From Lachnospiraceae bacterium (GTDB taxonomy: Bacteria; Bacillota; Clostridia; Lachnospirales; Lachnospiraceae): a stretch of 55,499 nucleotides of DNA. Numbering within the stretch: position 1 is the first letter of the stretch; each line of letters begins with the position of its first letter. Under the pieces are notes generated by a model, which made no database searches, was not told the DNA's origin, and worked only from the letters and a program-made list of their open reading frames with translations. Shown piece by piece: positions 225 through 27,441 of this stretch. The stretch is from positions 1 to 55,499 of the forward strand of contig JAFZLB010000009.1 in the NCBI GenBank assembly GCA_017551665.1, written 5' to 3'. The position numbers were made by a program, and so were the translations under genes.

Positions 225-1382
225 ATGTTGTTTCACAACGGAAACTTTTTTTTGAACGGCGGATTTGTGCGGGGTGCGATGCGCGTGACGGAAGGGCGGA
301 TTGCCGCGGTCGGTGAGACGGTTGAGGCGCTCCCCGGTGAAGATGTCCGGGATCTTGAGGGGCAGACCGTCGTGCCCGGCTTCCTTGATGTGCATACCCA
401 CGGGGCTTACGGGGTGGACGTGAACCATGCGAGCGCGGAAGACTTTGAAACCGTCTGCCGCTTTGTTGCCACGCAGGGCGTGACCGGCTGGCTTTGTTCC
501 GTCCTTACGGATACAAAGGAACAGACACTTCACGAAATTGCGGAGTACAGGAAATGGAAAACACTTCCGCACAAGGGCGCACGTCTTTTGGGGATTCACT
601 TAGAGGGTCCCTTCCTTGCCGTTTCGCGCAAGGGTGCCATGCCGGAGCATCTGCTTTGCACACCGGATCTTGAACTGATCCGGGAATACCAGGAAGCAGC
701 CGGAGGAGAGATCCGTTATATTACGCTCGCACCGGAGCTTCCCGGTGCGACAGAGATGATTCCCGCGCTGCGCGACATGGGCATCGAGGTTTCCCTCGGT
801 CATTCCGATGCGGACTACGTAACCTCCGTGCGTGCCATCCAAAACGGTGCGCGTTCCGCCACACACACGGGAAACGCCATGCGGCTTCTGCACCAGCACG
901 AACCCGCCCTGTTCGGTGCCGTACTCGAACATGACGCGGTGTACTGCGAGATCATCTGCGACGGCAGGCATCTGCATCCCGGCACGGTGCGGCTGATTCT
1001 GAAAGCAAAGGGTTATGAAAAGGCCGTCGCCATCACCGACAGCATCATGGCGGCGGGACTGCCGGACGGCGATTACAAGCTCGGCGTCAATGACATCGTG
1101 GTGAAGGACGGGGACGCGCAGCTCAAAGACGGCGGCGGCCGTGCGGGCAGCACGCTTACGGCAGCGACGGCACTGCGGAATCTTTCCGCCTGGACCGGCG
1201 CTTCCCTGTCGCAGCTGCTGAAGCTCTTTACGGAAAATCCCGCAAAACTGCTGCGGCTGGAACAGGACTATGGCGTGCTCACCCCGGGCGCGTACGCGGA
1301 TTTTGTCGTGCTGGACAAAGAACTGCATGTGCTGCATACCTTTGTCGGCGGCGGGGAATGTGTGCCGCCCGAAAAGAGCTGA
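225..1382 (+). CDS. nagA: N-acetylhexosamine-6-phosphate deacetylase family (NagA-like)
   Basis: Amidohydrolase of the NagA family, normally turning GlcNAc-6-P into GlcN-6-P plus acetate in the cytoplasm. Residues (from ATG 225): metal motif HTH at 57-59, EGPF with metal Glu127, metal His193 and His214, and catalytic Asp272 in ITDS. ATG 225 follows GAAAGGAG (204-211); an upstream TTG at 177 and GTG at 213 are possible but fit the ribosome-binding site worse. The usual HHREPG segment, whose Arg contacts the sugar phosphate, reads HQHEPA here (His225 in place of Arg), and the usual LFNAM/LYNAM reads TGNAM. Deacetylase chemistry looks intact, but the substrate may carry something other than a 6-phosphate. 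First gene of a locus with sulfatase, SIS and NagB-like enzymes, and followed closely by a CBM9-like gene. Confidence 0.9.
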   Translation: MLFHNGNFFLNGGFVRGAMRVTEGRIAAVGETVEALPGEDVRDLEGQTVVPGFLDVHTHGAYGVDVNHASAEDFETVCRFVATQGVTGWLCSVLTDTKEQTLHEIAEYRKWKTLPHKGARLLGIHLEGPFLAVSRKGAMPEHLLCTPDLELIREYQEAAGGEIRYITLAPELPGATEMIPALRDMGIEVSLGHSDADYVTSVRAIQNGARSATHTGNAMRLLHQHEPALFGAVLEHDAVYCEIICDGRHLHPGTVRLILKAKGYEKAVAITDSIMAAGLPDGDYKLGVNDIVVKDGDAQLKDGGGRAGSTLTAATALRNLSAWTGASLSQLLKLFTENPAKLLRLEQDYGVLTPGAYADFVVLDKELHVLHTFVGGGECVPPEKS

Positions 1383-1405
1383 AGTTTTTCCGGGGGAGAA
1401 AGCAT

Positions 1406-2023
1406 ATGTCCGACACCAATACCTATACGGTAATTTACATGGAAGAAATCGAATGGGACGCCGTTCCGAAAGCGGAGATCCGCCTGACACCCTGGGCGGC
1501 GCATCCCCTGTGCTATCCCGCTTACGCGCAGCTGGCGGTGGCGGCGGACGCGCTTCATGTGCGGCTGTTTGCGGAAGAAGCGCAGCCGCTTTCCCGCGTG
1601 ACGGAGGACAACGCGCCGGTGCATCTGGACAGCTGTCTGGAATTTTTTATCGAACCGGAACCCGGGAAGGGCTACTGGAATTTTGAAGCCAATCCCGCCG
1701 GCGCCTTCAAGGCCGCCTTCGGCGAAGGACGCGGGAACCGGACGCGCCTGCAAACGGATGTGCCCTACCGTTCTTTCTTCCGGATTGAAACGGAACAGGA
1801 CGGAACCGGCTGGGGCATCCGTTATGCGGTGCCGCTGACGCTTCTCTTTCCCGAAGGGACATGTCCCGCGGAAGCACGCTGCAATTTCTACAAATGCGGC
1901 GACGAAACCGCCACGCCCCATTTCCAGTGCTGGAATCACATTGCGACCCCCGCGCCGGATTTTCACCGGCCGGAGTATTTCGGGACGCTGCGGTTTTCGC
2001 CGATGCGGCGCATCCTTTCGTAA
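1406..2023 (+). CDS. CBM9-like carbohydrate-binding protein
   Basis: About 205 residues starting MSDTNTYTV. It resembles the carbohydrate-binding family 9-like (DOMON-related) proteins of Firmicutes: an all-beta protein with the LDSCLEFFIEP and GYWNFEANPAG segments typical of that group. ATG 1406 is chosen because GGGGGAGA (1392-1399) precedes it; the longer open frame from 1358 overlaps nagA. There is no signal peptide, so it probably works in the cytoplasm, which is odd for a glycan binder and suggests handling of imported saccharides. Its last 61 bases overlap the end of the convergent radical SAM gene. Family assignment is by overall pattern only; the ligand is unknown. Confidence 0.7.
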   Translation: MSDTNTYTVIYMEEIEWDAVPKAEIRLTPWAAHPLCYPAYAQLAVAADALHVRLFAEEAQPLSRVTEDNAPVHLDSCLEFFIEPEPGKGYWNFEANPAGAFKAAFGEGRGNRTRLQTDVPYRSFFRIETEQDGTGWGIRYAVPLTLLFPEGTCPAEARCNFYKCGDETATPHFQCWNHIATPAPDFHRPEYFGTLRFSPMRRILS

Positions 2024-3075
2024 GCATAAGAGAAAAACATCCGGTGCGCCTCACAGTGCCGGTGAATGCCGGTCTGCCGGTCGCGCTCCCGCCGGCATCC
2101 GTTTCTGCAAAGGCGGTACCAGGGGCAGTCGCGGCATTGTGACGGAACGGAATGTGAGGCTTCAAGAAACGCGGTTTCTTTTCCGGATTTCAGAATCTTC
2201 AAAAAAGAGTGTTCGCCGATATTGCCGAGCAGCCATTCATCCGTGCCGTAAAAATCACAGGGATACAGGCTGCCGTCGCTTTCCATCATCAGGGCGTTGC
2301 CGCAGATCCCCGCCATGGCGCAGCTGTCCGGCTGCCCTCCCGCCAGCATGTGAATCCAGTTGTCAAAGGTCCGGACGCTGACCGCCCGGTTCTGCTGCCA
2401 CGCCTTCTCATACAGATCAAAGGTTTCGCAAAGGAAGCGGCCGTAAGCCTCCGCGGTGAGTGCATACGCCCCCGGCTGCCCCTCAAGCGGATCCATGCAG
2501 GGAATGAACTGCAGAAAGCGGTACGGCGCAAGCGTCCGGAAGACTTCCTTTGCCTGCCTTGCGGCAACCTCCGTCACCACGCATAAAACGTTGCATTCCA
2601 CTCCCGCTTCCAGCAGGCGGTCCAGATTTGCAAGCACAGCGCCGTACGTTTCCTTTCCGGCGGCATCCCTGCGGCAGCTGTCATGCACCAGCGCCGTTCC
2701 GTCCAGGGAAACGCCGGTCAGAAACTGCTCCCTTGCCAGAAACGCGATCATTTCAGCGGAAAGATGCAGACCGTTGGTCTGGATGGCGTTCGTGACGCGA
2801 AGTCCCTTTGTGTTGTACATCTTCTGGAAACGGAGGACGGATTCATAAAAGGGAAGACCTGCCAGGGTGGGCTCCCCGCCCTGAAACAGGAAATGCGCCG
2901 CACCTTCCGCGGAGCGCAGGACCCGCCTGATGGCAGTCTCCAGCACGGCTTCGGACATGCGCCGTGGTTCCTGCCCGGCACTGCGGTATTGCAGTTCATC
3001 CGCGTAAAAGCAGTAACTACAACGCATATTGCAGCGGCCGGACACCGGTTTGATCATCAGCGTAGCGGCGGGCAC
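1963..3075 (-). CDS. Anaerobic sulfatase-maturating enzyme (radical SAM/SPASM)
   Basis: Radical SAM enzyme of the anSME family, which oxidises a Cys or Ser of sulfatases to the catalytic formylglycine without oxygen. The N-terminus gives the CX3CX2C cluster motif at Cys15, Cys19 and Cys22 (CNMRCSYC), followed by FYADE. Twin C-terminal SPASM Fe-S regions are visible: CGNALMMESDGSLYPC and the CRDCPWYRLCRNGC cluster. The start is GTG at 3075 with AGGGGAGG just upstream, and it matches the family N-terminus. Its client is very probably the Cys-type sulfatase at 8452-9822. It lies tail to tail with the CBM9-like gene (61-nt overlap), downstream of the GH3 gene with 17 nt between, so the two minus-strand genes probably form one transcript. 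Confidence 0.93.
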   Translation of the reverse strand: MPAATLMIKPVSGRCNMRCSYCFYADELQYRSAGQEPRRMSEAVLETAIRRVLRSAEGAAHFLFQGGEPTLAGLPFYESVLRFQKMYNTKGLRVTNAIQTNGLHLSAEMIAFLAREQFLTGVSLDGTALVHDSCRRDAAGKETYGAVLANLDRLLEAGVECNVLCVVTEVAARQAKEVFRTLAPYRFLQFIPCMDPLEGQPGAYALTAEAYGRFLCETFDLYEKAWQQNRAVSVRTFDNWIHMLAGGQPDSCAMAGICGNALMMESDGSLYPCDFYGTDEWLLGNIGEHSFLKILKSGKETAFLEASHSVPSQCRDCPWYRLCRNGCRRERDRQTGIHRHCEAHRMFFSYAYERMRRIGENRSVPKYSGR

Positions 3076-5576: not shown

Positions 5577-5605
5577 TTTGTCTCTTTTATCCCTTGTATT
5601 ATAAT
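5577..5605 (+). promoter_or_regulatory. Promoter of aldolase-SIS-TSUP unit
   Basis: TTTGTC (5577-5582), 17-nt spacer, then TATAAT (5600-5605). Closely similar in sequence to the nagA promoter. Confidence 0.65.
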
Positions 5606-5610
5606 ATAAT

Positions 5611-5632
5611 TAGTTAAATAAAAAAATAATTC
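5611..5632. promoter_or_regulatory. Putative ROK-repressor operator, aldolase site
   Basis: AGTTAAATAAAAAAATAATT starts about 6 nt after the -10 box, in the same place as in the nagA, SBP and repressor promoters. It sits between the divergent GH3 and aldolase genes and could govern both. Confidence 0.5.
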
Positions 5633-5651: not shown

Positions 5652-6506
5652 ATGCTGACAACAAACGCCGCGCAGCTTGTCCGGGCGGCAAAGGAAGGCT
5701 ACGCGATTCCCGCGATCAACACGCAGGGCGGCAGCTTCGATATCATCCGCGCCATCTGCAAGGCGGCGGAGGAGCTGCACTCTCCCGTCATCCTTGCGCA
5801 CTATGTCGCCACCGGTGCCTACGCCGGAAACGACTTTTTCGCCGAGGTGGCAAAATGGTGCGCGGATAGAGTTTCCGTTCCCGTTTCCATTCACCTTGAC
5901 CACGGCGACAGTCCCGAAATCTGCCGGGAAGCGCTGGACTTGGGCTTCACCTCGCTCATGATCGACGGTTCCACCAGGCCGGTGGAAGAAAACGCCGCCC
6001 TTACGGCGGAGGTGCTCCGTATGGCAGAGCCGTATCAGGTGCCGGTGGAAGCGGAGATCTGGGAACTGCTGCGCCTGGATGAAACGGGCGCGGCCATGGA
6101 AAACAAAAACATCGCGGACCCGGAGATGGTAAAGGAATTTCTTTCCCTTTGCGCACCGGATACACTGGCAATCGGCATCGGCAACGCGCACGGATACTAT
6201 CACGGCGAGCCGGACATTCACCTGGATGTGCTGCAGGAGGTCCGGAAGTTTACGGATCTTCCGCTGGTGCTGCACGGCTGCACCGGCATGCGGGAAGAGG
6301 TCATCCGCGAGGCCATCCGTCTCGGCGTTGCCAAAATCAATTTCGGAACGGAGATCCGCTGGAAGTATGTGAACCACTACCGGGAGGGGCTGGACAGCCT
6401 GGATCACGCGGGACATTCCTGGAAGATTTCGCAGTACGCAAGCGACAAACTGGCGGAGGATATCAAGGGCATCATCCGCCTGGCCGGTTCCGAAGGCAAA
6501 GCGTAA
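5652..6506 (+). CDS. Class II fructose/tagatose-bisphosphate aldolase family
   Basis: 284-residue class II (metal-dependent) aldolase of the Fba/GatY/KbaY type, which cleaves a ketose 1,6-bisphosphate to dihydroxyacetone phosphate and an aldehyde. It shows the metal-binding HLDHG motif, EAEI, and the HG loop before the C-terminal barrel strands. It starts at ATG 5652 after GGAGGTGG. Relative to typical family members the usual HGGSG loop reads HGCTG, and the following NIDTD-like segment reads NFGTEI, so ligand contacts differ. It leads an operon with the SIS-domain and TSUP genes. It could cleave tagatose- or fructose-type bisphosphates or an analogue with another C6 group. Confidence 0.88.
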   Translation: MLTTNAAQLVRAAKEGYAIPAINTQGGSFDIIRAICKAAEELHSPVILAHYVATGAYAGNDFFAEVAKWCADRVSVPVSIHLDHGDSPEICREALDLGFTSLMIDGSTRPVEENAALTAEVLRMAEPYQVPVEAEIWELLRLDETGAAMENKNIADPEMVKEFLSLCAPDTLAIGIGNAHGYYHGEPDIHLDVLQEVRKFTDLPLVLHGCTGMREEVIREAIRLGVAKINFGTEIRWKYVNHYREGLDSLDHAGHSWKISQYASDKLAEDIKGIIRLAGSEGKA

Positions 6507-6538
6507 ACACACACCGCATCAGAAGGGAGAACGGGGTC

Positions 6539-7594
6539 ATGGAAAAACAAAACAGCGCGATCACCTATCGTGAGATGTACCGGCAGGCGGAGATTTTTGC
6601 CGCGCTGAACAAAAGCATTCCGGAGATTCACGCCACGCTGGAAACGGTGTTTGCGGAAACATACGACGAACTGATCTTTACGGGCTGCGGCACGAGCCTT
6701 TACCTCGCGCAGTCGGCGGCGCAGGCCTTTGCCTCACTGAATCCCGTGCCCGCCCGCGCGGTCTGCTGCTCGGAGCTGTATCATTTTCCGGAAACCTTTC
6801 TCAAGGGGAAGCGCACGCTGGTGCTGCCAATTACAAGAAAAAGCTACACGACGGAGGTGCGCATGGCCATCGACCGTGCGCGCACATTTGACGGCGTCAA
6901 AACCCTCTCCGTCACCTGCGACAAAGACGCGGCAGCCTACAACGATTTCATGGTCTTTTGTCCGGAAGCGGAGGAGGAAAGCGTTATCATGACGGGTTCC
7001 TTTACCGGCATGCTTTACCTGACTTCGCTGATTGCCTTCCACGCGGCCGGCAGAAAAGACCTCATCGAAGATCTGCGGGACTACCCTTCCCACGCGGAGG
7101 CCTTTTTGAAGCGCTCGGATGAAACGGCAAAATCCGTCCTGCAGGCACGCCCGGACTTCAATCTGTTCATCATGCTGGGACAGGGGGTGCACTACGGCGT
7201 CGCGAATGAGTGCATGAACAAAATCAAGGAAATGAGCCTCTCCAATTCGGAAGCTTATTATACGATGGAATACCGGCACGGTCCCATGAGCCTCGTGGAC
7301 GGACACACGATGATCGTTCTGTTCCCCCATTCGAAAACGGCGGCCTCCGATCTTGCGCTGCTGGAACAGATGAAATCCTTCGGTGCGTATACGCTGGCCG
7401 TGGGGGCGCATGTTTCCGAAACCTTTGCCCTTGCCGACTGCTGCCTGGATCTGCCCTTCCCTTACGACGACATCCAAAGCACCGCCATGACCGGTTTCAT
7501 CGGACAGTTCCTCGGCTACCATCTTTCCCTTTTGAAGGGACTGGACGCGGATACGCCGAGACATCTGTCACAGGCCATCGTGCTGCCGTCCTGA
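6539..7594 (+). CDS. SIS-domain sugar isomerase/deaminase (AgaS/GlmS-like)
   Basis: 351 residues with two SIS domains. The first opens with TGCGTS (48-53); the second contains the ExRHGPxSL signature (MEYRHGPMSL). Family members include AgaS (galactosamine-6-P deaminase/isomerase), FrlB and the isomerase half of GlmS. ATG 6539 lies 32 nt after the aldolase stop with GGGAGA upstream; the much longer open frame starting at 6149 is a read-through of the aldolase region. The phosphate-cradling motif, normally SxSGxT/S, reads ITRKSYTTE (residues 98-106): Lys and Tyr replace the small residues. I infer a ligand other than an ordinary hexosamine 6-phosphate. Next to an aldolase and NagA homologue, an AgaS-like step to a tagatose derivative is plausible. 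Confidence 0.85.
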   Translation: MEKQNSAITYREMYRQAEIFAALNKSIPEIHATLETVFAETYDELIFTGCGTSLYLAQSAAQAFASLNPVPARAVCCSELYHFPETFLKGKRTLVLPITRKSYTTEVRMAIDRARTFDGVKTLSVTCDKDAAAYNDFMVFCPEAEEESVIMTGSFTGMLYLTSLIAFHAAGRKDLIEDLRDYPSHAEAFLKRSDETAKSVLQARPDFNLFIMLGQGVHYGVANECMNKIKEMSLSNSEAYYTMEYRHGPMSLVDGHTMIVLFPHSKTAASDLALLEQMKSFGAYTLAVGAHVSETFALADCCLDLPFPYDDIQSTAMTGFIGQFLGYHLSLLKGLDADTPRHLSQAIVLPS

Positions 7595-7600: not shown

Positions 7601-8329
7601 ATGGAAAGCGCCGCGTGGATTGCGATTCCCGCCGTCGCTTTTGTGGCGGGACTGGTGCAGGCGAGCTGCGGCATCGGCTTTGCCATCATTGTGATGTCAC
7701 TCTGGCCGCTGTGGATTCCCTTCCGCGTCGCGTCAGCCATTGAACATGTCGCGGCCATGCTGGTCAGCGGCTATCTCGTGATCCGTCTGTTCCCGCATAT
7801 CCGCTGGAAGCTGATCCTGCCCTGCCTGGCGAGCGGTCTTGTCTGCTCCTTTCTGGGCGTGCGGATGATGCTGACGTTTTCCGAGACCTTCCTGCACAAA
7901 ATCCTCGGCATCACCCTTCTGCTGCTGACGGCCTGGTTTCTCTTTTTCAGCAAAAAAGTAAAGCTGCGGCCTTCCGTGACAACAGGACTTGCTGTCGGCT
8001 GCGTCACGGGATTTGCCGGCGGCATCTTCAACATCGGCGGTCCGCCGATGGCCGCCTATCTGCTTTCGGTTTCGGATGACAAAAACGCGTACAGCGCTTC
8101 CGTCCAGGCCTATTTCCTGATTGCCGGCACCGTGGCGCTCGTTTCGCATCTCACCGCCGGCACCTTCACCGCCGATATGCTGCCTGCCGGCTCTTTTGCG
8201 CTTGCGGGTACCTTTGCCGGGATGCTGCTCGGTTTTATCCTGTTCCGGCGGCTGACCCTGCCGAAAATCAAAACGCTGCTCTATGTTTTTATGGCCACGG
8301 CGGGCGTGCTGTTGCTGCTGTTCGGGTAG
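7601..8329 (+). CDS. TSUP-family anion exporter (TauE/SafE)
   Basis: 242-residue polytopic membrane protein with the internal two-fold repeat of the TSUP (sulfite/sulfonate exporter TauE/SafE) family. The repeats contain GIGFAIIV near the N-terminus and GFAGGIFNIGGPPMAAYLLS in the middle. Members move sulfite, sulfate-related or organosulfonate anions out of the cell. It starts 6 nt after the SIS gene stop, so it is operonic. Next to an apparently cytoplasmic sulfatase, export of sulfate or a sulfur-bearing end product is the natural reading. A second TSUP gene (27449-28231) closes the locus. Confidence 0.88.
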   Translation: MESAAWIAIPAVAFVAGLVQASCGIGFAIIVMSLWPLWIPFRVASAIEHVAAMLVSGYLVIRLFPHIRWKLILPCLASGLVCSFLGVRMMLTFSETFLHKILGITLLLLTAWFLFFSKKVKLRPSVTTGLAVGCVTGFAGGIFNIGGPPMAAYLLSVSDDKNAYSASVQAYFLIAGTVALVSHLTAGTFTADMLPAGSFALAGTFAGMLLGFILFRRLTLPKIKTLLYVFMATAGVLLLLFG

Positions 8330-8416: not shown

Positions 8417-8445
8417 TTGTGAATTTTTCAGGGAAACGATATAAT
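8417..8445 (+). promoter_or_regulatory. Sulfatase promoter, predicted leaderless
   Basis: TTGTGA (8417-8422), 17 nt, then a perfect TATAAT (8440-8445). Initiation 7 nt past the -10 box falls on the A of the sulfatase ATG (8452). No Shine-Dalgarno site lies at a usable distance; AGGGA at 8430-8434 is 17 nt away. Confidence 0.6.
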
Positions 8446-8451
8446 AATAAA

Positions 8452-18122: not shown

Positions 18123-18146
18123 TTCTATCCAAAGAAGGGAGCAGCG

Positions 18147-19280
18147 ATGAAAAAGAAAATCATGTCTTATCTGTTGACAGGCGCTCTGCTGACGTTTGTG
18201 CTGGCGGGCTGCGGCGGCAGTGCCGGCAACAGCGGAAACTCCGCCGCATCCACGGCGGACAGCGTGGCGCAGACGGAAGCCTCCACCCCCGCACCGGCGG
18301 ATACCTCCGCGGCAGCACAGACGACGGAAGCGGAGCCGGAACCGGAAGCCCCCGCGGCGGAACCGGTCACGCTCCGGATTGCGTACATGCCCAACTACGC
18401 CGCACTCTGGGCGGTGACGACGGCAAGGGAGAAGGGTTTCTTTGAAGAAGAAGGCATTACCGTGGAACTGACGGAATTTGCGGACGGCCCGACGGAAATC
18501 GCCGCCATGGAATCCGGCTCCATTGATCTGTCTTACATCGGCCCCGGCGCGCACAGACTCTGTGCCACGGGCAACGCGGAGGTCTTTTTGCTGCAGCAGC
18601 TGGGCGACGCGGACTGCGTCATCGGCTTGAAGAGCAAGGGCGTGGAATCCCTCGAAGATCTGAAGGGCAAGACGGTTGCCTATGCCTCCGGTACCTCTTC
18701 GGAACAGATTCTCTCCCTCGCGCTGGAATCCGTGGGACTGACGATGGATGATATCGAAGCCTATGACATGGATACCACCAACATGGTCACGGCCGCGATC
18801 TCGGGTTCCGTGGACGCGCTGGCGACCTGGTCTCCCTACTCTCTCACCATCATGGAAGAGTTGGGGGACGATGCCATCAAATTCTGCTCCAACGTCAGCT
18901 TCTCCGATGTCACCGTGACACCGGCCAGCTGGGTCTGCACGCCCGCCTACGCCGATGAAAATCCGGAGATTCTGGTGCGCTTTATCCGCGCCATGTACAA
19001 GGCGATGGATTACGGCTCCAAAGAGGAGAACATGCAGGAAGTCGCGGGCTTTGTCGCGGAGCAGTGCAAGACGGATGTGGATGCCGCCTACGAACAGCGC
19101 GGCGACGGCTCCTGGTTTACGAAGGACCGCGTGATTGCCGCCGCAAAGGACGGCAGCATGGTGGAATACTACACCCTGCAGCAGAATCAGTTTATTGCCG
19201 CGGAAAAGGTGGATGCCGCCACGGCGATTGACCCGGCGGACTTCGTTCTGACGGAACTGATGATACAGGCAGGCGAATAA
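18147..19280 (+). CDS. NMT1/SsuA-type ABC transporter binding lipoprotein
   Basis: About 377 residues from ATG 18147 (MKKKIMSYLL), preceded by GAAGGGAG. Lipobox LAGC near residue 22 and an Ala/Ser/Glu/Pro tether, then a periplasmic-binding fold of the SsuA/TauA/NMT1 group (LRIAYMPNYAALWAVTTAREKGFFEEEGITVEL). Members bind sulfonates, taurine, nitrate or pyrimidine precursors. It heads a single operon with its permease and ATPase and then NagB-, PGI-, TIM- and LarA-like enzymes. That links a sulfonate-type importer to hexose enzymes, and suggests an anionic sugar as cargo. Confidence 0.85.
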   Translation: MKKKIMSYLLTGALLTFVLAGCGGSAGNSGNSAASTADSVAQTEASTPAPADTSAAAQTTEAEPEPEAPAAEPVTLRIAYMPNYAALWAVTTAREKGFFEEEGITVELTEFADGPTEIAAMESGSIDLSYIGPGAHRLCATGNAEVFLLQQLGDADCVIGLKSKGVESLEDLKGKTVAYASGTSSEQILSLALESVGLTMDDIEAYDMDTTNMVTAAISGSVDALATWSPYSLTIMEELGDDAIKFCSNVSFSDVTVTPASWVCTPAYADENPEILVRFIRAMYKAMDYGSKEENMQEVAGFVAEQCKTDVDAAYEQRGDGSWFTKDRVIAAAKDGSMVEYYTLQQNQFIAAEKVDAATAIDPADFVLTELMIQAGE

Positions 19281-19386
19281 GGGGACAGGATTGCGCGGGG
19301 GATGCGGACGGCATCTCCCGCGCATTTTTCTTATCTGATCTTCCCGCACGCAGCGGATAGAAGCCCTCAACACCGGAGGAATGGAT

Positions 19387-20181
19387 ATGAACGAAAAGAA
19401 AAACAAGGGTGCCGACCTGATTTCAAAGATCCCGAAATGGGTCTGGCTTTTGCTTTCCCTGCTGACCGCGGTGATCGTGTGGACCCTGCTGTCCCTGAAC
19501 CCGACCACCGCCCGCAGTTTTCCGAACGCGATAAAGACCTTCTCTTCCGCGGAGCTGATGGTACGGCGCGGCGTCCTGTTTTCCGATATTTCCAGCAGTC
19601 TGATCTCTGCCGGCATCGGCTTTTTGCTGGGCTTTGTCATCGGTGTTCCGGTGGCCTTCCTCATGGCCTGGTACCGCCCGGTGCGCTTCATCATTGAGCC
19701 CTGGATCCAGTTCATCCGCAACATCCCGCCGCTGGCCTACGTGCCCCTCGTCGTGATCTCCGCGGGCATCGGCAGAAAGCCGCAGATCATCGTCATCTGT
19801 CTGGCCACCTTTCTCACGATCTGCATCACGGTCTTTCAGGGTGTCATCAATGTGGACGAGACGCTGATCAAGGCCGCAAGGGTGCTGGGCGCGAATGACC
19901 GCATCCTCTTTACCCGCGTGATTTTTCCGGCCACCGCCCCCTTCATCATCACGGCAGTGCGCCTTGGCATTTCCGTTTCCCTCACGACGCTGATCGCCGC
20001 GGAATCCACCGGCGCGATGGCGGGGCTTGGTATGCGCATCCGCTCACTCTCCAACACCTTTGAAACGGAGCCGATGCTGCTTTACATCATCATCATCGGC
20101 GTGATCGGCATGCTGGCGGAAAAAATACTGAAATACTTTGAAAGGAAGCTGACCTCATGGCAGGAGAAGAGAGAGATCTGA
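19387..20181 (+). CDS. SsuC/TauC-type ABC transporter permease
   Basis: Permease of about 264 residues with roughly six helices. It has the SsuC-family features QFIRNIPPLAYVPLVVISAGIG and the cytoplasmic loop KAARVLGANDRILFTRVIFPATAPF. ATG 19387 is preferred over ATG 19381 because GGAGG (19375-19379) lies 7 nt upstream of it but abuts the earlier ATG. The end overlaps the ATPase gene by 25 nt. Confidence 0.9.
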   Translation: MNEKKNKGADLISKIPKWVWLLLSLLTAVIVWTLLSLNPTTARSFPNAIKTFSSAELMVRRGVLFSDISSSLISAGIGFLLGFVIGVPVAFLMAWYRPVRFIIEPWIQFIRNIPPLAYVPLVVISAGIGRKPQIIVICLATFLTICITVFQGVINVDETLIKAARVLGANDRILFTRVIFPATAPFIITAVRLGISVSLTTLIAAESTGAMAGLGMRIRSLSNTFETEPMLLYIIIIGVIGMLAEKILKYFERKLTSWQEKREI

Positions 20182-20948
20182 AGGTAAAGATCCGCGGCGT
20201 GACCAAAACCTTCGACGGCCGCAAGGGGCAGGTGATTGCCTTAAACGGCGTGGATCTGGATATTTACAACAATGAGTTTATCTGTGTGGTCGGGCCTTCG
20301 GGCTGCGGCAAATCCACGCTCTTAAACATCATTGCGGGACTTCTGGAAAAGACCTCCGGCGAAGTGCAGGTGGACGGCAAAGAGGTTCAGGGCACCGGCA
20401 TCGACCGCGGTGTTGTCTTCCAGCAGTACGCGCTCTTTCCCTGGCTGACGGTGAAAAAGAATGTGCTTTTCGGCCTGAAGATCCAGAAAAAGAGCCCGGC
20501 GGAAATGGAAGAAATTGCGATGAAATACATCCGCATGGTGGGGCTGGAAAAATTCGCGGACGCCTATCCGAAGGAGCTGTCCGGCGGCATGAAGCAGCGT
20601 GTCGCCATCGCGAGAGCCTACGCGGTCAATCCCTCGCTGCTTTTGATGGATGAGCCCTTCGGCGCCTTGGACGCGCAGACGAGAACGCAGTTGCAGACGG
20701 AGCTTCTGAAAACCTGGGAAGAGGAAAAAAAGACCTGCTTCTTCATCACGCATGATGTGGAAGAAGCGGTGCTTCTTGCCACGCGCGTCATCGTCATGAG
20801 CGCGCGTCCCGGGCGCATCAAGGAAATCATCCCAGTGGACATCCCCTATCCGCGTGACCAGGAAACGAAGATGTCTCCCGCCTTCACCGATCTCAAAAAC
20901 TATATCTGGAACATGGTGTATAAGGAATATCTGGAGGTGGCGGAATAA
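20157..20948 (+). CDS. SsuB/TauB-type ABC transporter ATPase
   Basis: 263-residue ATPase: Walker A GPSGCGKST, Q-loop VVFQQYALFPWLTV, signature LSGGMKQR, Walker B LLLMDEPFGALD, and the switch His in ITHDVEEA. It is of the nitrate/sulfonate/taurine type and partners the preceding permease. Its stop codon overlaps the ATG of the NagB-like gene (TAATG), so transporter and enzyme synthesis are coupled. Confidence 0.93.
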   Translation: MAGEERDLKVKIRGVTKTFDGRKGQVIALNGVDLDIYNNEFICVVGPSGCGKSTLLNIIAGLLEKTSGEVQVDGKEVQGTGIDRGVVFQQYALFPWLTVKKNVLFGLKIQKKSPAEMEEIAMKYIRMVGLEKFADAYPKELSGGMKQRVAIARAYAVNPSLLLMDEPFGALDAQTRTQLQTELLKTWEEEKKTCFFITHDVEEAVLLATRVIVMSARPGRIKEIIPVDIPYPRDQETKMSPAFTDLKNYIWNMVYKEYLEVAE

Positions 20949-21760
20949 TGCACGAATACTATGCCTACGGAAAAGAGGAGCTGATGCGCGCACCGAAGAT
21001 TCCGCTGGAGATTTTTCCGGATAAGGAAAGCTGCTTCCGCAGCATGGCGGAACGGATGATTGAGGTGGTGCGAAAGACAGGGGAAGCGGGAAAGGACTGC
21101 CTGATGATTGTACCGGTCGGTCCTGTCGGGCAGTATCCCTTTTTTGTGGAACGCGTCAACAAAGAGCGGATCTCGCTTACGAACTGCACCTTCATCAATA
21201 TGGACGAATACCTGACGGACGAAGGTAAATATATTGAAGAAACACATCCCTTAAGCTTCCGCGGCTTTATGCAACGGGAGGTGTACGGCAAAATCGATGC
21301 GGCGCTGCTGCCAAAGGAAGAACAGCGCGTCTTCCCGGATCCGGCAAATCCGGCGTATGTCACGGAACTTGTGGCAGCCCGCGGCGGCGTGGACGCGGTC
21401 TTCGGCGGCATCGGCTTAAACGGGCATCTGGCCTTCAACGAGGCCTGCGCGGAACTGCCGGAAGCGGAATTCTGCGCACAGCCGACGCGGGTGCTGGACA
21501 TTGCAAGGGAGACAAGAGCCTGCAACGCCATCGGCGATTTCGGCGGGAAGCTGGAGGATATGCCCTCCCGCTGTATCACGGTTGGCTTCAAAGAGATCTT
21601 AAGCGCCAAAACCATCGTGCTTGGAGTTTTCCGTGACTGGCACCGCGCGGTTGTGCGCAGAGCCGCTTACGGAGAGCGGACGGCGGCATTTCCGGTTTCC
21701 TTTTTGCAGGGCAGGGAGGATGTATGCATCCTGCTGCCGGAATCCGTTGCGGCGCTGTAA
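20948..21760 (+). CDS. nagB: NagB-like glucosamine-6-phosphate deaminase homologue
   Basis: 270-residue member of the glucosamine-6-phosphate isomerase/deaminase family. Catalytic landmarks are kept: NMDEY with Asp86, and GLNGHLAFNE with His160 (Asn before Gly-His is also seen in Gram-positive NagB). The phosphate clamp is not: the TGGTP loop reads VGPVG (57-61), the ANSRFF segment (E. coli Arg172) reads CNAIGDF, and the GSQKA Lys (Lys208) is replaced within FRDWHRA. It therefore probably opens and deaminates an amino sugar with a different 6-substituent. It starts inside the stop of the ABC ATPase gene with GGAGGTGG upstream. Confidence 0.82.
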   Translation: MHEYYAYGKEELMRAPKIPLEIFPDKESCFRSMAERMIEVVRKTGEAGKDCLMIVPVGPVGQYPFFVERVNKERISLTNCTFINMDEYLTDEGKYIEETHPLSFRGFMQREVYGKIDAALLPKEEQRVFPDPANPAYVTELVAARGGVDAVFGGIGLNGHLAFNEACAELPEAEFCAQPTRVLDIARETRACNAIGDFGGKLEDMPSRCITVGFKEILSAKTIVLGVFRDWHRAVVRRAAYGERTAAFPVSFLQGREDVCILLPESVAAL

Positions 21761-21777: not shown

Positions 21778-23040
21778 ATGAAAGAATCCTTACAGCCGGA
21801 GCTTTCCGGCACAAGAAACATCATCACGGAAGCGGAATTCCTTGCGGCGCTGGACGCAGCGGTGCCGCTGCTTGCGCGTTTCCGGGCGGGGCTTCCGGAA
21901 TATCAGGAGCATCTCGGCTGGTTTGATCTTTCCCGGTCTTCCCCGGAACAGCTTGCACGTATGGAGGAACTTGCAGCGACGCTCGCAAAGACCGCGGACA
22001 CGCTGGTCGTCATCGGCGTCGGCGGCTCGAACCAGGCGGCCAGGGCGGTGGTTGAGGCGCTCGGAGCGCGTCAGGGCATGCGGCTTGTCTGGGCGGGCAA
22101 TTCTTTGTCCGCGCATGAGATCAACCGCGTCCTTGCGGAACTGGAAGGCCGGGAATTCTGTATCAACGTCATCGCAAAGAACTTTGAAACCGTGGAGCCG
22201 GGCATTGCCTTCCGCGTCCTGCGGCGGGCGCTGCGGGAACGCTGCGGCGAAGATTACGGGAAACGCATTGTCTGCACCGGAACGGAAGGCAGCCGTCTGG
22301 AAGCATTGGCAACAGAAAACGGCTGGCATTTCCTGCCCTTCCCGCAGGACATCGGCGGACGTTTCAGCGCACTCACCCCGGTGGGACTCTTTCCCCTCGC
22401 GGCCGCGGGCTTTGACCTTGCCGCGTTGGCGAAGGGCGCTTCCGATATGCGCGCGCATCTGTTGGAAGCGACGGCTAAAGAGAATCCGGCATTGCGCTAC
22501 GCGGTCACAAGAAAGCTGCTTTATGATAAGGGCTTCCGGATGGAGATGCTCTCCTTCTTTGAACCGCGCCTCGTGCGCTTTTCGAAATGGTGGATGCAGC
22601 TGTTTGGCGAAAGCGAGGGCAAGGAGGAAAAGGGACTGTATCCCGTCTGCGGAAACTTTTCGGAGGATCTGCATTCCGTCGGACAGTTTTTGCAGGACGG
22701 CTCCCGCGTGATGTTTGAAACATTTCTGGATGTGGCAGACAGCGGCGCGTCCTGCCTGCTGACGCCGGACGGCATTGAGGACGGATTCGCGTATCTGGAC
22801 GGCACGGATTTTGACAGCGTCAACCGCGCCGCCTTTGAAGCGACTTACGCGGCACACGCTGCGGTGCTGCCCTGCCTGCGGCTTTCTTTGCCCTGCCTGA
22901 ACGAAGAAGCTTTCGGAAGTCTGTTTTACTTCTTTTTTGCAGCCTGCACCTTCAGCGCCCTGCTGCTGAACGTCAATCCCTTTGACCAGCCGGGCGTGGA
23001 AGCATATAAGGAGCGCATGTTCAAAAAACTCGGAAAATGA
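21778..23040 (+). CDS. pgi: Glucose-6-phosphate isomerase homologue
   Basis: 420-residue PGI-family aldose-ketose isomerase, closest in layout to Bacilli PGI. Catalytic landmarks remain: DIGGRFS with Arg195, FGESEGK with the base Glu, DLHSVGQ with His299, and the C-terminal NPFDQPGVEAYK. The phosphate-binding elements differ: GGSYLGARA is GGSNQAARA, and the ISKSGTTTEP loop is IAKNFETVEP (132-141), losing the Ser and Thr ligands and adding a Glu. A housekeeping PGI would not lose these. I infer isomerisation of a hexose whose C6 group is not phosphate. Fourth gene after the sulfonate-type transporter start, 17 nt from the NagB-like gene. Confidence 0.88.
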   Translation: MKESLQPELSGTRNIITEAEFLAALDAAVPLLARFRAGLPEYQEHLGWFDLSRSSPEQLARMEELAATLAKTADTLVVIGVGGSNQAARAVVEALGARQGMRLVWAGNSLSAHEINRVLAELEGREFCINVIAKNFETVEPGIAFRVLRRALRERCGEDYGKRIVCTGTEGSRLEALATENGWHFLPFPQDIGGRFSALTPVGLFPLAAAGFDLAALAKGASDMRAHLLEATAKENPALRYAVTRKLLYDKGFRMEMLSFFEPRLVRFSKWWMQLFGESEGKEEKGLYPVCGNFSEDLHSVGQFLQDGSRVMFETFLDVADSGASCLLTPDGIEDGFAYLDGTDFDSVNRAAFEATYAAHAAVLPCLRLSLPCLNEEAFGSLFYFFFAACTFSALLLNVNPFDQPGVEAYKERMFKKLGK

Positions 23041-23053: not shown

Positions 23054-23893
23054 ATGAAACATATCTGTCTGAATCTGAAACGCTTTGACGTACCTGTCGC
23101 ATACGGCGGCGTCAACCGCCTGGCGGACATCCGCGACTGGGGCGCGGCCGTTGTCTCACAGACACAGGAAGGCTTAAAAAAATATGAACCGGAAGAAGCG
23201 GAGTTTTTGCAGTTTCTGCCGGAGGCACATCTGCTGTCTGCAACGGCGGCACTTTGCGAAAACAGCCCGGTGCAGATCGGCTCCCAGGGCGTGTACCGCA
23301 TGAACACCGCCCCCGGCGGCAACTTCGGCGCCTTCACCACAAACCGCCCCGCCTCCGCCGTAAAAGCGCTCGGCTGTACGGCGACGCTGATCGGGCACTG
23401 CGAAGAGCGCGTGGATAAAAAGGGCATTCTCGCGGAGGCCGGCGTGACGGACGCGGACGCCGTGAACCGCCTGCTGAATATGGAAATCAAATGCGCACAG
23501 GAAGCCGGGCTGAAGGTGGTCTACTGCATCGGCGAAACGGAGGAAGAACAGCCGCAGCGCGACGCGGTGCTCGGGGCGCAGCTGGACACCGGTCTGAAAG
23601 GAACGGACACTTCCGGCATCATCATCGCCTATGAACCGGTCTGGTCCATCGGCCCCGGCAAGACGCCGGCCGGAAAGGACTACATCACGGAAGTCGCACG
23701 CTTCGTCAAGGAGCGCACCGGTGGACTGCCTGTCATTTACGGCGGCGGACTGAAGACGGACAACGCGCAGATGCTGGCCTCCATCGGGGAAATCGACGGC
23801 GGGCTGATTGCTTTGACACGTTTTCAGGGCGAGATCGGATTTTATCCGGAAGAATATCTGGAAATCATCCGTCTTTACCTGGGAAAGGAATGA
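23054..23893 (+). CDS. tpiA: Triosephosphate isomerase homologue
   Basis: 279 residues from ATG 23054 (MKHICLNLKR) after AAGGAG. Catalytic residues are present: Lys9 in NLK, His115 in IGHCEER, Glu194 in YEPVWSIGPGK, with loop 6. The phosphate-holding backbone is altered: YGGSV is YGGGL (229-233) and the LVGGASL turn is LIALTRF (251-257), losing the Ser and the two glycines that hold phosphate. It is also longer than typical TIM (about 250). It may isomerise a three- or four-carbon compound bearing another anion. It lies between the PGI-like and LarA-like genes with spacers of 13 and 3 nt. Confidence 0.82.
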   Translation: MKHICLNLKRFDVPVAYGGVNRLADIRDWGAAVVSQTQEGLKKYEPEEAEFLQFLPEAHLLSATAALCENSPVQIGSQGVYRMNTAPGGNFGAFTTNRPASAVKALGCTATLIGHCEERVDKKGILAEAGVTDADAVNRLLNMEIKCAQEAGLKVVYCIGETEEEQPQRDAVLGAQLDTGLKGTDTSGIIIAYEPVWSIGPGKTPAGKDYITEVARFVKERTGGLPVIYGGGLKTDNAQMLASIGEIDGGLIALTRFQGEIGFYPEEYLEIIRLYLGKE

Positions 23894-23896: not shown

Positions 23897-25384
23897 ATGA
23901 AACATTTTGAATTTGAGTACGGCACAGGGACCATGGGCGCAAACCTGCCGGACAATACGGATGAATTCATCCCCGGTGTGACGGTACCGGATCCGCCCTG
24001 CATCCCGGAGGACAAATTAGAAGAAGCCTATCTCACAAGCATCCGCAACCCCATCGGCATGCCGCCCGTTTCGGAGCTGGTACACGAAGGCAGCAAGGTG
24101 GTCTTTGTCATTCCGGACCGGGTGAAGGGCGGCGAACAGCCCACCTGCCACCGCAGGCTGTCCATGAAATACCTGCTGCGGGAGCTGTATGCGGCGGGCG
24201 TGAAAAAGGAAGACATCCTCTTCATCATTTCCAACGGTCTGCATCCCCGTTCCACCCCCGCGGACGCGCTGGCGCTCTTCGGGGAGGAACTTTACGCAGA
24301 GTTTTGGCCCACGGGACAGATCATCAGCCATGATTCCGAAGACCCGGAACACATGACAGATCTCGGTCTCACAAAGCGCGGCGATCCGGTGCAGATGAAC
24401 CGCTATGTTTTCGAGTGTGACCTGCCCATCCTGATCGGACATGTCATGGGCAATCCCTACGGCGGTTATTCCGGCGGCTACAAGCATTCCGCAACGGGCA
24501 TCACCTCCTGGCGCTCCATCGCCAGCCACCATGTGCCCTCCGTCATGCACCGCGCGGACTTTACGCCGGTGAACGGCGGCTCGCTCATGCGCGAAAAGTT
24601 CAACGAGATTTCCATGAAGATGGAAGAAGAAATGGGACATCCCTTCTTCTGCTGTGACGCGGTGCTGGATTCCAAAGCCAGACAGATCGCCGTCTTTTCG
24701 GGCTACGCAAAAGAGATGATGCCGCAAAGCTGGAAGGTTGCGGACAAGCGCACCTACGTCCACTGGGCGGAAAAGAAATACGATGTCCTTGTGTTCGGAA
24801 TGCCGCAAAAGTTCCATTACGGCAACGGCATGGGCACGAACCCGATCATGATGATGCAGGCCTTAAGCGCACAGGTGCTGCGCTTCAAGCGCGTCATGAG
24901 CGAGCGCTGCGTGCTGATCTGCGCCAGCCTCTGCAACGGCTTTTTCAACGACGACGCCTGGCCCTATCTGCGCGAATGTTATGACTGGTTCCACAGGGAT
25001 CAGATGCAGACGCTGCCGGACATGGACCGCCTCGGCGAATACTTTGCGACAAACGAGGAATATATCCGCAAATACCGCTTCGCTTATGCCTTCCATCCCT
25101 TCCACGGTTTTTCCATGATGAGCTGCGGGCATATCGCGGAGATGAACACGAGCGCGATTTACATCGTCGGCGCACAGGAACCGGGCTACGCGCGCGGCAT
25201 GGGCTTAAAAACAAGGGCGACCTTTGAAGAAGCACTGGAAGACGCGAAGAAAAAGATTGTGGGACCGGAGCCGAACATCCTGGCGCTGCCGCTGACCTTC
25301 AAAACCGCGGCGGTGCATCTCGGGATGAAGAATCCGTCAGAGGACGGCATGGACGCCTACGGCGTGAGAGGCTGCTGCGGCTGA
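23897..25384 (+). CDS. larA: LarA-like nickel-dependent hydroxyacid racemase/epimerase
   Basis: 495-residue member of the lactate racemase LarA (DUF2088) superfamily. The N-terminal domain carries the IPDRVKGGEQPT loop; the middle carries GYSGGYKHSATGI, whose Lys corresponds to the residue that bonds the nickel-pincer cofactor, and the SHH histidines. The family racemises or epimerises 2-hydroxyacids including lactate and aldonates. The cofactor genes larB, larC and larE are not in the window. It is the last gene of the operon, so a hydroxyacid probably arises in the pathway. The gene ends 16 nt from the convergent repressor gene. Confidence 0.8.
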   Translation: MKHFEFEYGTGTMGANLPDNTDEFIPGVTVPDPPCIPEDKLEEAYLTSIRNPIGMPPVSELVHEGSKVVFVIPDRVKGGEQPTCHRRLSMKYLLRELYAAGVKKEDILFIISNGLHPRSTPADALALFGEELYAEFWPTGQIISHDSEDPEHMTDLGLTKRGDPVQMNRYVFECDLPILIGHVMGNPYGGYSGGYKHSATGITSWRSIASHHVPSVMHRADFTPVNGGSLMREKFNEISMKMEEEMGHPFFCCDAVLDSKARQIAVFSGYAKEMMPQSWKVADKRTYVHWAEKKYDVLVFGMPQKFHYGNGMGTNPIMMMQALSAQVLRFKRVMSERCVLICASLCNGFFNDDAWPYLRECYDWFHRDQMQTLPDMDRLGEYFATNEEYIRKYRFAYAFHPFHGFSMMSCGHIAEMNTSAIYIVGAQEPGYARGMGLKTRATFEEALEDAKKKIVGPEPNILALPLTFKTAAVHLGMKNPSEDGMDAYGVRGCCG

Positions 25385-25400: not shown

Positions 25401-26624
25401 TCAGCCGGTGTAGCGCTCGATCGCGTTCAGAATGGCGACCGCCGCACCGCCCAGCGCACCGCTCAGGGGATCCGCTTTCAGGAAGCGGAAGGTTGTTTTG
25501 GAATGCACCATGCTGTAAAGATGTTTGGAGATCGTGCCGGTCAGAAGCTTCTGGTTCTCCGCACGGTCGAAGAGCTTTCCCTCGATCAGCAGCGTATCCA
25601 TGTTGCTGAGATTGGCGATGTTGGCAATCGCGATGCCGAGGGTGGTCAGCGCCTGCTGCACCTCTCCGGTGACAAAGGGATCTCCCTTTTCCTGGGCCAG
25701 AAGGATCTCCTCCATGGAGGGCGCGTCCTTCTTCCCGAGCACCGCTTTCAGGCCGGGTGCTTTGCCGGATTGCATTGCCTCCGTGCAGACGGAAAGGATG
25801 GCGCGGTCACCGGCGTAAGCCTCCAGGCAGCCGCGGTTGCCGCAGGAGCAGAGCGCACCGTTTTCGTGCATGACCATGTGCCCGACCTCGCCGTTGCCGA
25901 TGACGGATTCGCTCATGACGGGGGCATTGACCACAAGCGGACAGGCAATGCCGTCGGCGATGAGCAGATAGGCGAAGAGATCGGCGTCATGCAGAAGATC
26001 CTGCCGGAAAAGCTGTGCGGCGATGGCACGGGAAGCGGTATTGTTCATGGTCCGCACCGGTCCCCGGAAGGCGGTGAGGGAACGGAAGTCGGCGCAGATG
26101 GATTTGTCCAGCCAGTTGTCGCGGGGGTGCATGGTCAGAACGCCCTTCGCGCTGTCCACCAGCCCCGGCACCGCCAGACCCACGCCCTTTACGCTTGCGG
26201 CGTCAAGGCCGGATTGTTTGAGAAGCTTACGGTAAAGAGAAGCGGCGGAACGCAGCGCCCTGTCATAGTCCGTACAGAGCTTCGTGTCCGCGGCGGCATA
26301 CAGCATCCGCCCCCTGAAGTCCGTGATACAGGCCGTGCGTCCGGTATCGCGCATTTCGATACCGAGAAAATGTCCGTACGCGGGATCAATGGTTAAGGCA
26401 TGTGCCTTTCTGCCCGGCGCACCGGTTTCGTCCGGCGCGGTTTCCCGGACAAGCCCTGCGCGGATCATGGCATTGACGCTGGTGGTGATCGTCGGCAGGG
26501 TCAGATCCAGCATATCCTTTAAGTCCGCGCGCTTGACGGGACCGTGCTGGCAGATCAGCCGGAGTATGGCGGTATGATTGGATGTCTTTGCCCGTGCGGA
26601 ATTGGAGCCTGTGATATGCAGCAA
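25401..26624 (-). CDS. ROK-family transcriptional repressor (NagC/XylR type)
   Basis: 407 residues: N-terminal winged helix-turn-helix (HTAILRLICQHGPVKRADLK, about 17-60), then a ROK sugar-binding domain with zinc ligands His249 and CSCGNRGC (259-266). The catalytic Asp of ROK kinases is Thr196 (NNTAS), so it should sense a sugar without phosphorylating it. It starts at TTG 26624 with AGGAGG 8 nt upstream. Its promoter (TTGACC-18-TATAAT) is followed at once by an operator sharing 13 nt with the nagA site, implying autoregulation. It probably represses the whole 0-28 kb locus. Confidence 0.9.
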   Translation of the reverse strand: MLHITGSNSARAKTSNHTAILRLICQHGPVKRADLKDMLDLTLPTITTSVNAMIRAGLVRETAPDETGAPGRKAHALTIDPAYGHFLGIEMRDTGRTACITDFRGRMLYAAADTKLCTDYDRALRSAASLYRKLLKQSGLDAASVKGVGLAVPGLVDSAKGVLTMHPRDNWLDKSICADFRSLTAFRGPVRTMNNTASRAIAAQLFRQDLLHDADLFAYLLIADGIACPLVVNAPVMSESVIGNGEVGHMVMHENGALCSCGNRGCLEAYAGDRAILSVCTEAMQSGKAPGLKAVLGKKDAPSMEEILLAQEKGDPFVTGEVQQALTTLGIAIANIANLSNMDTLLIEGKLFDRAENQKLLTGTISKHLYSMVHSKTTFRFLKADPLSGALGGAAVAILNAIERYTG

Positions 26625-26647
26625 ACGCCCGTCCTCCTTTTCATTTG

Positions 26648-26660
26648 TTATTTCATTTAA
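26648..26660. promoter_or_regulatory. ROK operator at its own promoter
   Basis: TTATTTCATTTAA is the exact reverse complement of nagA-site bases 180-192, placed just downstream of the repressor's -10 box. Confidence 0.65.
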
Positions 26661-26662
26661 TT

Positions 26663-26692
26663 ATTATAAGGGGCGGCAATCCTTATGGTCAA
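26663..26692 (-). promoter_or_regulatory. Promoter of the ROK repressor gene
   Basis: Minus strand: TTGACC (26692-26687), 18-nt spacer, TATAAT (26668-26663). Confidence 0.7.
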
Positions 26693-26754
26693 GAACGGAA
26701 ATAAAAACGGAAGCAATTAGTCACTGTTCACATAAGCATACGGAGGTAAGACAA

Positions 26755-27441
26755 ATGAAATTCTTTCTGGACAGCGCCAAACTGGACGAAATCAGGGAAG
26801 CACACGGCAGTTTCGGCATCGACGGCGTTACGACAAATCCCCGTCACATCATGGTCAGCGGCAAGCCCTTTCTGACCGCCATTCAGGACATCGCGGACTG
26901 GGTGAAGGCAGAGGGCCTGACGGGCATTGACACCTTCCCCGTCTCCGTGGAAATCAATCCGCATCTGGATGATACGGATCAGATGGTGGAGGAAGCAAAG
27001 AAAATCGCCGCGATCAGCGAAAACTTTGTCATCAAAGTGCCCTCGACCCTTGCCGGCATCCCTGCCGCCAGGCGTCTGGAACAGGAAGGCATCCGCACAA
27101 ATGTGACGCTTGTCTTCTCTCCGGCCCAGGCAATTCTTCCCGCGAAGATCGGCGCGAAATTCGTCTCTCCCTTCATCGGCTGGAAAGAAGCCAACGGCGA
27201 GGACTGCAAACAGTATATCAGCGACATCGTCACGATCTATGACAATTACGGTTTTCTTGGTGAGACCGAAATCATCTGCGCCGCCGTGCGCACGCCGAAG
27301 CAGATCGCGGACTGCGCGGTGGCGGGCGCGGACATTGTCACCGCGGGGCTGGATGTGTTCAAGGACTGCATGAAGCACGCCTACACCACACAGGGCATCG
27401 GCATCTTCACGGACGCCTGGGATCATACGGAAGGAAACTGA
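26755..27441 (+). CDS. Transaldolase/fructose-6-phosphate aldolase family protein
   Basis: 228-residue FSA/TalC-type protein. It has GVTTNP near the N-terminus and the Schiff-base Lys94 in IKVPST. ATG 26755 follows GGAGGTAAG. The two residues that bind the substrate phosphate in this family are both changed: the SPFxGR Arg (E. coli FSA Arg134) is Trp143, and the AAS Ser (Ser166) is Ala177. It may thus cleave a ketose with a non-phosphate terminus, or use dihydroxyacetone donors. Sulfofructose transaldolases of the sulfo-TAL pathway belong to this fold, which makes a sulfosugar substrate thinkable. Divergent from the repressor and followed 7 nt later by a TSUP exporter. Confidence 0.85.
   Translation: MKFFLDSAKLDEIREAHGSFGIDGVTTNPRHIMVSGKPFLTAIQDIADWVKAEGLTGIDTFPVSVEINPHLDDTDQMVEEAKKIAAISENFVIKVPSTLAGIPAARRLEQEGIRTNVTLVFSPAQAILPAKIGAKFVSPFIGWKEANGEDCKQYISDIVTIYDNYGFLGETEIICAAVRTPKQIADCAVAGADIVTAGLDVFKDCMKHAYTTQGIGIFTDAWDHTEGN

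Follow-up and report, generated by a model that had tools for sequence, protein, structure and literature searches.

What do enzymes of amino sugar-6-phosphate catabolism act on when the residues that should hold the phosphate are gone? We address this question for a locus in a 55,499-base contig of a Lachnospiraceae bacterium (JAFZLB010000009.1; assembly GCA_017551665.1, 2.57 Mb and 91% complete). The window that we analyzed is the entire contig, and the genes under study, together with operator-like sites, span positions 177–28,231. The initial annotation of this DNA had named NagA-, NagB-, SIS-, PGI-, TIM-, PFK- and transaldolase-family proteins, a sulfonate-type ABC importer, a sulfatase with its maturase and two TSUP exporters, all of which were found as open reading frames (ORFs) with Pfam assignments; it overlooked a LarA-family gene and the fixed pairing of TIM with LarA. 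Judging from sequence comparisons, we propose that the locus probably specifies a repressor-controlled sulfoglycolysis, by which hexoses bearing a sulfo group at C6 would be degraded, with amino sugars as the main entry. What can be observed directly are the protein families, their residues, the linkage of the genes and a shared motif.

We scored phosphate-site residues by comparing the window proteins and their strand-checked relatives (loci L054–L133) with E. coli references or, for PGI, with the canonical PGI of the window genome; the E. coli positions scored are those that we take to hold phosphate. Relatives with at least 38% identity, no stops and coverage of 85% of the window protein were used, and shorter or more distant ones were left out. 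In six families, with 6–80 relatives each, the phosphate-site residues were gone in a near-identical manner and the catalytic residues were kept. The NagA-like deacetylase (225–1382, + strand; above the TIGR00221 cut-off) has H for R227, as do 60/60 relatives, all of which keep the metal-binding and catalytic E, H, H and D. In the NagB-like deaminase (20948–21760, +; 86 bits against a nagB cut-off of 237), the TGGTP loop has become VG--P by a two-residue deletion and K208 has become H in 80/80 relatives; D72, H143 and E148 are kept in all 80 and R172 in 79, and D141 is replaced by N in 79/80. The TIM-like protein (23054–23893, +; assigned by Pfam, alignments and residues) is devoid of the phosphate gripper of triosephosphate isomerase, since S211, G232 and G233 are changed to G, A and L, along with T172 to P, in 50/50 relatives and in the window protein itself. 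Its H95, E97 and E167 are kept in 50/50, and its catalytic lysine is the invariant K9, read by eye in a separate alignment because the N-terminal columns of the residue scoring were misaligned. The PGI-like isomerase (21778–23040, +; Pfam, residues; n = 10) carries AKNF(E/Q)T(L/V) for SKSGTTT with its catalytic residues kept, and the SIS-family aminosugar deaminase/isomerase-like protein (6527–7594, +; best NCBIfam match GlmD, under cut-off; n = 6) carries TRKSYTTEV for GRSGNSPES. Lastly, the PFK-family kinase (9848–11020, −; Pfam, tree, residues) has H for R162, with L or I for H249, in 44/44 relatives, among which R243, R252 and D127 are kept. We rejected the R162 loss as a proof, because R162 is also missing from other non-canonical PFKs of our tree set, so that this change is weak when taken alone.

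Some phosphate-site residues persist (NagA H251, NagB R172, PFK R243 and R252), and the class II aldolase of the window keeps motifs read by eye as the site for the phosphate of dihydroxyacetone phosphate. R229, W231 and H232 are invariant in an 18-sequence alignment of NagB-like proteins; known sulfonate sites typically contain Arg/Trp pockets. As far as alignments can tell, the loss of phosphate-site residues with retention of catalytic ones is real: the family alignment and position scoring that the initial annotation had proposed as a check revealed it in every or nearly every relative of the six families. The claim that each enzyme had changed its phosphate residues therefore stands for NagA, NagB, PGI, TIM and SIS and extends to PFK, but not to the transaldolase, which is a sulfofructose transaldolase.

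The most distinctive part of the system is the TIM-like gene with the LarA-family gene (23897–25384, +; PF09861), which form a fixed pair in the family. Among 299 family genomes, TIM-like (E ≤ 1e-50) and LarA-like (E ≤ 1e-100) matches were found in the identical 23 (7e-35 under random placement, kinship ignored). NagB-like matches at E ≤ 1e-30 occurred in 27 of the 299, 18 of them at E < 1e-85. Since LarA was present in 17 of these 18 strong-NagB genomes (G072 being the exception; Fisher p 8e-22, kinship ignored) and also in six genomes without strong NagB, several entrances seem to share one exit composed of TIM and LarA. In locus L045 of genome G184, the sulfofructose transaldolase adjoins TIM and LarA, with no PFK or aldolase seen in 20 kb; the window has PFK, class II aldolase and transaldolase together. 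The pairing is less strict beyond the family: LarA was found in 8 of 398 phylum genomes including the window's own, and TIM was visible in five of the seven other loci. TSUP genes adjoin TIM/LarA in another lineage (L206 and L208, Pfam-tested; L210 and L212, by eye).

Two further loci contain the pair. An apparent operon (L137:3134-16570) encodes a 2-oxoacid-dehydrogenase-type complex, TIM, LarA, TSUP and an NMT1 importer with two ATPases. Enzymes for hexoses were not seen there, and direct use of a C3 sulfonate is possible. At L134:4971-13174, larB (by eye) and larC adjoin TIM, LarA, an FGGY kinase and a LUD-domain protein.

We then looked at the genes surrounding NagB in relatives. A scan of species genomes yielded 543 stretches with a NagB-like relative at E ≤ 1e-3, some of which may be ordinary NagB, and genes were counted in the best 80 by tblastn, with five query proteins taken from first-round loci. 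The records are named Blautia, Hungatella, Roseburia, Coprococcus, Catonella, Clostridium (C. clostridioforme among the relatives) and many uncultured Lachnospiraceae and Oscillospiraceae. The importer, of the NMT1/SsuA type, was represented by its ATPase (window 20157–20948, +; PF00005) in 70 loci, its permease (19381–20181, +) in 66 and its solute-binding protein (18120–19280, +; PF09084) in 65. NagA was present in 62, TIM in 52, LarA in 51, PFK in 46 and PGI in 15, and 57 loci had a 385-residue class II aldolase that is absent from the window. Less frequent were genes like those for TSUP (TauE) exporter 2 (27449–28231, +; PF01925; 19 loci), the DUF4838 protein (15988–17895, −; PF16126; 14 loci), which is possibly a cytoplasmic glycosidase, and exporter 1 (7601–8329, +; PF01925; 6 loci). 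The recurrent set consists of the importer, NagB, NagA, PFK, class II aldolase, TIM and LarA, with PGI, SIS plus aldolase, and TSUP as occasional members, and no further gene among 483 unlabelled ORFs recurred in more than 6/80 loci (one inspected member of their largest cluster is LarC-like by eye). The gene order is shuffled among the 80 loci, which argues for shared function over recent inheritance. The SIS gene together with its KbaY/GatY- or FBA-like class II aldolase (5652–6506, +; PF01116), a second aldolase arm, sits within the same clusters in six loci, four of which have a TauE1-like gene. Thus, the left half of the window probably belongs to the same system.

An operator-like palindrome, TWGTTAWWYNRWWTAAYTA, is shared by five promoter regions. 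It precedes NagA (177–195, +, no mismatch to the pattern), the FBA-SIS-TauE1 genes (5611–5629, +, two mismatches), the DUF4838 operon (17936–17954, perfect) and the importer-NagB-PGI-TIM-LarA operon (18100–18118, +, one mismatch), and it lies between the transaldolase and a ROK repressor with a winged-helix domain (25401–26624, −; PF00480 plus MarR) at 26645–26663 (+, no mismatch). The pattern has 10 matches over both strands against 0.02 expected, a statistic that is optimistic because the pattern was written from these very sites once seen. A stricter form recovers 4/5 sites. With up to two mismatches allowed, the window has just one further match, which is AT-rich (5594-5612) and directly borders the second site. 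Of 244 loci searched for exact matches, 242 had none, and the other two come from the contig of the window itself.

Other features of the window adjoin these genes. A Cys-type sulfatase (8419-9822, +) has a CGPCR motif and, by eye, no obvious signal peptide; an anSME-like radical SAM/SPASM protein is encoded at 1963-3075 (−). Both adjoin a pathway that seemingly has no need of a sulfatase, and a distant sulfatase (24-26%) was found in 4/80 loci. A CBM9_2 protein (PF16011; 1358-2023, +), whose gene overlaps the end of that for NagA, also adjoins a 73% NagB relative in L054. The window contains no Rfam matches or tRNAs.

From these genes we infer the following pathway, in which the head group, the identity of the amino sugar and every reaction, C3 chemistry included, are predictions. 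The NMT1/SsuA-type ABC importer would take up the sugar, the NagA-like enzyme would strip the N-acetyl group, and the NagB-like enzyme would deaminate and isomerize the 6-sulfo-glucosamine to a 6-sulfo-ketose. The SIS-like and KbaY-like proteins may provide a side entrance, possibly for the galacto series, and the PGI-like isomerase another for a neutral 6-sulfo hexose such as sulfoquinovose. The ketose would be cleaved after C1 phosphorylation by the PFK-like kinase and class II aldolase in most relatives, and by the sulfofructose transaldolase in L045, giving phosphates of central metabolism and a C3-sulfo aldehyde (sulfolactaldehyde, if the head group is a sulfonate). The TIM-like protein and single-histidine LarA would convert the C3-sulfo unit, and a TSUP protein would export the sulfur anion or sulfonate. 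The initial annotation had suggested such an Embden–Meyerhof–Parnas (EMP)-like amino sugar route, and its core of deacetylation, deamination, C1 phosphorylation and aldol cleavage is backed by the recurrent neighborhoods, by the L045 transaldolase that takes the place of PFK and aldolase, and by the shared operator-like motif. Its preference for an O-sulfate such as N-acetylglucosamine-6-sulfate (GlcNAc-6-sulfate), ecologically attractive as it is, fared less well against a sulfonate when enzyme kinship was considered.

The nature of the head group was approached through this kinship. The nearest solved match of the transaldolase (26755–27441, +), which is of the 6-deoxy-6-sulfofructose type, is BmSF-TAL (8bc3, E 7.6e-83), and we rejected the notion of a transaldolase that merely lost phosphate recognition on account of this match. 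The protein keeps the equivalent of Trp138, a tryptophan treated as sulfonate-orienting in PMC11659671, as well as D, E, K and S of the catalytic site listed there. It is 57-78% identical to the transaldolases of 19 other genomes, the next group being at most 48% identical. Relatives of a sulfoquinovose-isomerase-like query (from L183; at least 57%) and of a GH31 query (from L181; about 40% or more) were each found in 18 of the 19; in G184 the sole match was a GH31 at 31%. Sixteen of the 19 genomes have no LarA, and all 16, as well as two of the three with LarA, carry both relatives. The GH31 query passes the cut-off of PRK10426, which we take to be YihQ. The neighborhoods of the 19 transaldolases include a DUF4867-type protein in 12 cases and an SftF-like reductase in 8 (one member of each Pfam-tested). 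Neither query matched the window genome, itself 91% complete, at E ≤ 1e-30 (other sulfoquinovosidase families, GH188 among them, were not searched), so entry would not be by the known route.

The window PFK, in turn, falls into a 13-member clade (UFBoot 90) with two PFKs that neighbor sulfoquinovose isomerases, apart from 10 other PFKs; the tree also includes the PFK of G226, a genome outside the LarA and transaldolase sets. Furthermore, a distant TIM/LarA/TSUP locus from another family (L208) shares with the isomerase locus L224 two permeases (62 and 67%), a binding protein (42%), a GntR regulator (51%), PFK (41%) and an aldehyde ferredoxin oxidoreductase (AOR; 57%). AOR genes were seen in L208 (Pfam-tested) and, 57% alike, in L224 and L226. 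Because the transaldolase, the PFK kinship and the sharing between L208 and L224 all point to sulfoquinovose-type loci, we favor a sulfonate, which is the likely head group on these comparisons. Searches of the open-licence literature, subscription papers lying outside them, listed no title or abstract that dealt with sulfonated-aminosugar catabolism or with LarA and sulfoquinovose.

Several findings weigh against this proposal in whole or in part. Many of the best 80 of the 543 candidate stretches, on which the locus counts rest, are incomplete, and 31 of the 80 lack TIM, LarA or both within the available stretch. Besides the window, L045 alone has a sulfofructose transaldolase near the cluster, and a 38% homologue occurs in 1/80 loci. 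On NF048012, the SftI model, the isomerase query scores 404 bits and the isomerases of L224–L226 score 458-536, all under the cut-off of 700. The phylum loci L209 and L211 have LarA without a visible TIM, and L207 and L211 look Entner-Doudoroff- or sugar-acid-like. LarC had no match in 2/13 LarA genomes among 150 searched. A literature search surfaced no natural 6-sulfonated N-acetylhexosamine, and 6-O-sulfated hexosamines are common and abundant in the gut. The window also contains the sulfatase and anSME.

These last points bear on the alternative that survives best, possible though not probable, in which the same pathway handles an O-sulfate ester: GlcNAc-6-sulfate and N-acetylgalactosamine-6-sulfate from mucin and glycosaminoglycans would yield glyceraldehyde-3-sulfate, from which the TIM-like protein would eliminate sulfate. 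The NagA/NagB and SIS/KbaY-like arms would suit the two common 6-O-sulfated hexosamines, gut samples are named for many relatives, and sulfatase, anSME, GH3 and DUF4838 genes are nearby. On the other side stand the grouping of the transaldolase and PFK with sulfoquinovose-pathway genes, the parts shared by L208 and L224, and L137 with its NMT1 ABC importer, TSUP, TIM and LarA, for which dihydroxypropanesulfonate (DHPS) is presumably the obvious C3 sulfonate candidate; we know of no common C3 sulfate. According to PMC11659671, the product of the transaldolase with glyceraldehyde-3-phosphate is fructose-6-phosphate, an O-linked tetrahedral anion, so the enzyme could accept a sulfate ester as well.

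Improbable, in our estimate, is a carboxylate at C6, that is, an aminouronate route in which the TIM-like and LarA-like proteins act on tartronate semialdehyde or hydroxypyruvate, LarA using an alpha-hydroxy acid. Characterized LarA relatives do use 2-hydroxy acids, according to PMC7583248, and L207 and L211 carry TctABC-like (by eye), SMP-30, DHDPS-family and IlvD-like proteins. However, a sulfofucose Entner-Doudoroff pathway likewise employs a dehydrogenase, lactonase, dehydratase and aldolase, as PMC12421959 describes, and a carboxylate accords poorly with the presence of a sulfofructose transaldolase in both the window and L045, with TSUP and with the NMT1/SsuA-type importer. Ordinary GlcNAc-6-phosphate catabolism by divergent enzymes whose phosphate sites have moved elsewhere is most improbable: although the proteins match Nag/EMP enzymes in family and catalytic residues and the NagA-like one scores above the nagA cut-off, near-invariant residue loss has struck six families at once, a canonical PGI and PFK are kept elsewhere in the window genome, and there would be no place for TIM-like plus LarA or the sulfofructose transaldolase.

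Returning to the sulfoglycolytic pathway, we considered the chemistry of the C3 pair. The closest solved relatives of the window LarA are PDB 9q3j (E 3.9e-283) and 9q2u (E 6.9e-236); these presumably correspond to the proteins from Blautia wexlerae and Streptococcus plurextorum that PMC12611868 describes. In the accessible part of that paper, single-histidine LarAs carry Asn for the second catalytic histidine, the one protein tested does not racemize lactate, no substrate is reported, and an unspecified carbohydrate role is proposed, with neighbors that include glucose-6-phosphate isomerase, TIM, FBA and glucosamine-6-phosphate isomerase. The window protein has Asn at the His174 position, and the other Lys/His residues of the nickel-pincer nucleotide (NPN) site are kept (alignments by eye). 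The window genome has larB, larC and larE, each above its NCBIfam cut-off. Co-occurrence with LarC was weakened as evidence, because 94 of 150 family genomes have LarC, including 11 of the 13 that have LarA. LarA minus one histidine may shift a hydride to an adjacent site, as suggested in PMC7583248. The chemistry that we prefer, tentatively and with weak support, is that the TIM-like protein acts as a sulfo-lyase, enolizing the C3-sulfo aldehyde and expelling sulfite (or sulfate) to leave methylglyoxal, which LarA would turn into lactate by an intramolecular nickel-pincer hydride shift; we regard this scheme as rather unlikely to be right in full. If it were true, the desulfonation would be redox-neutral, need neither oxygen nor radicals and make use of all six carbons, and the nickel-pincer cofactor would gain a new class of reaction.

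If the pathway operates as proposed, common gut genera (Blautia, Hungatella, Roseburia, Coprococcus) and Clostridium clostridioforme would share an undescribed route for sulfur-bearing amino sugars, which would supply further sulfite or C3 sulfonate for the formation of hydrogen sulfide in the gut. Also, since the window LarA belongs to a structurally solved nickel-pincer subfamily of unknown substrate, the locus proposes a testable pathway for that subfamily.

How does this system compare with those already known? It resembles the sulfo-TAL (sulfo-SFT) pathway of Firmicutes in its sulfofructose-type transaldolase, its TSUP proteins and a predicted cleavage that releases a C3-sulfo aldehyde from a 6-sulfo-ketose. 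Unlike in sulfo-TAL, neither SftI-like nor YihQ-type proteins were matched in the window genome, entry would be by NagA-, NagB- and PGI-like enzymes, and TIM plus LarA is present; a Pfam scan of 20 window proteins showed no sulfolactaldehyde reductase or dehydrogenase such as that of sulfo-TAL, the rest of the genome not having been searched. The kinase and aldolase of published sulfo-EMP2 belong to PF00365 and PF01116, families that are also present in the window, and the window PFK clades with isomerase-linked PFKs in a comparison that included no functionally proven SqiK; the differences are the absence of an SqvD-type isomerase match, the aminosugar entry and the C3 end. With Nag and Aga aminosugar-6-phosphate catabolism the locus has in common the order of the predicted chemistry and the families NagA, NagB, SIS, PFK and KbaY, but its phosphate-site residues are lost and an NMT1/SsuA-type ABC importer is found in place of a phosphotransferase system. 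The window LarA, with Asn at the His174 position, is a close member of the LarA_Bw/LarA_Sp subfamily, published without a substrate in the accessible text of PMC12611868 and here tied to a putative sulfo-sugar pathway. Rather than a wholly new kind of pathway, the proposed system is a variant of sulfoglycolysis that would be entered from aminosugars and would end with an unusual C3 pair.

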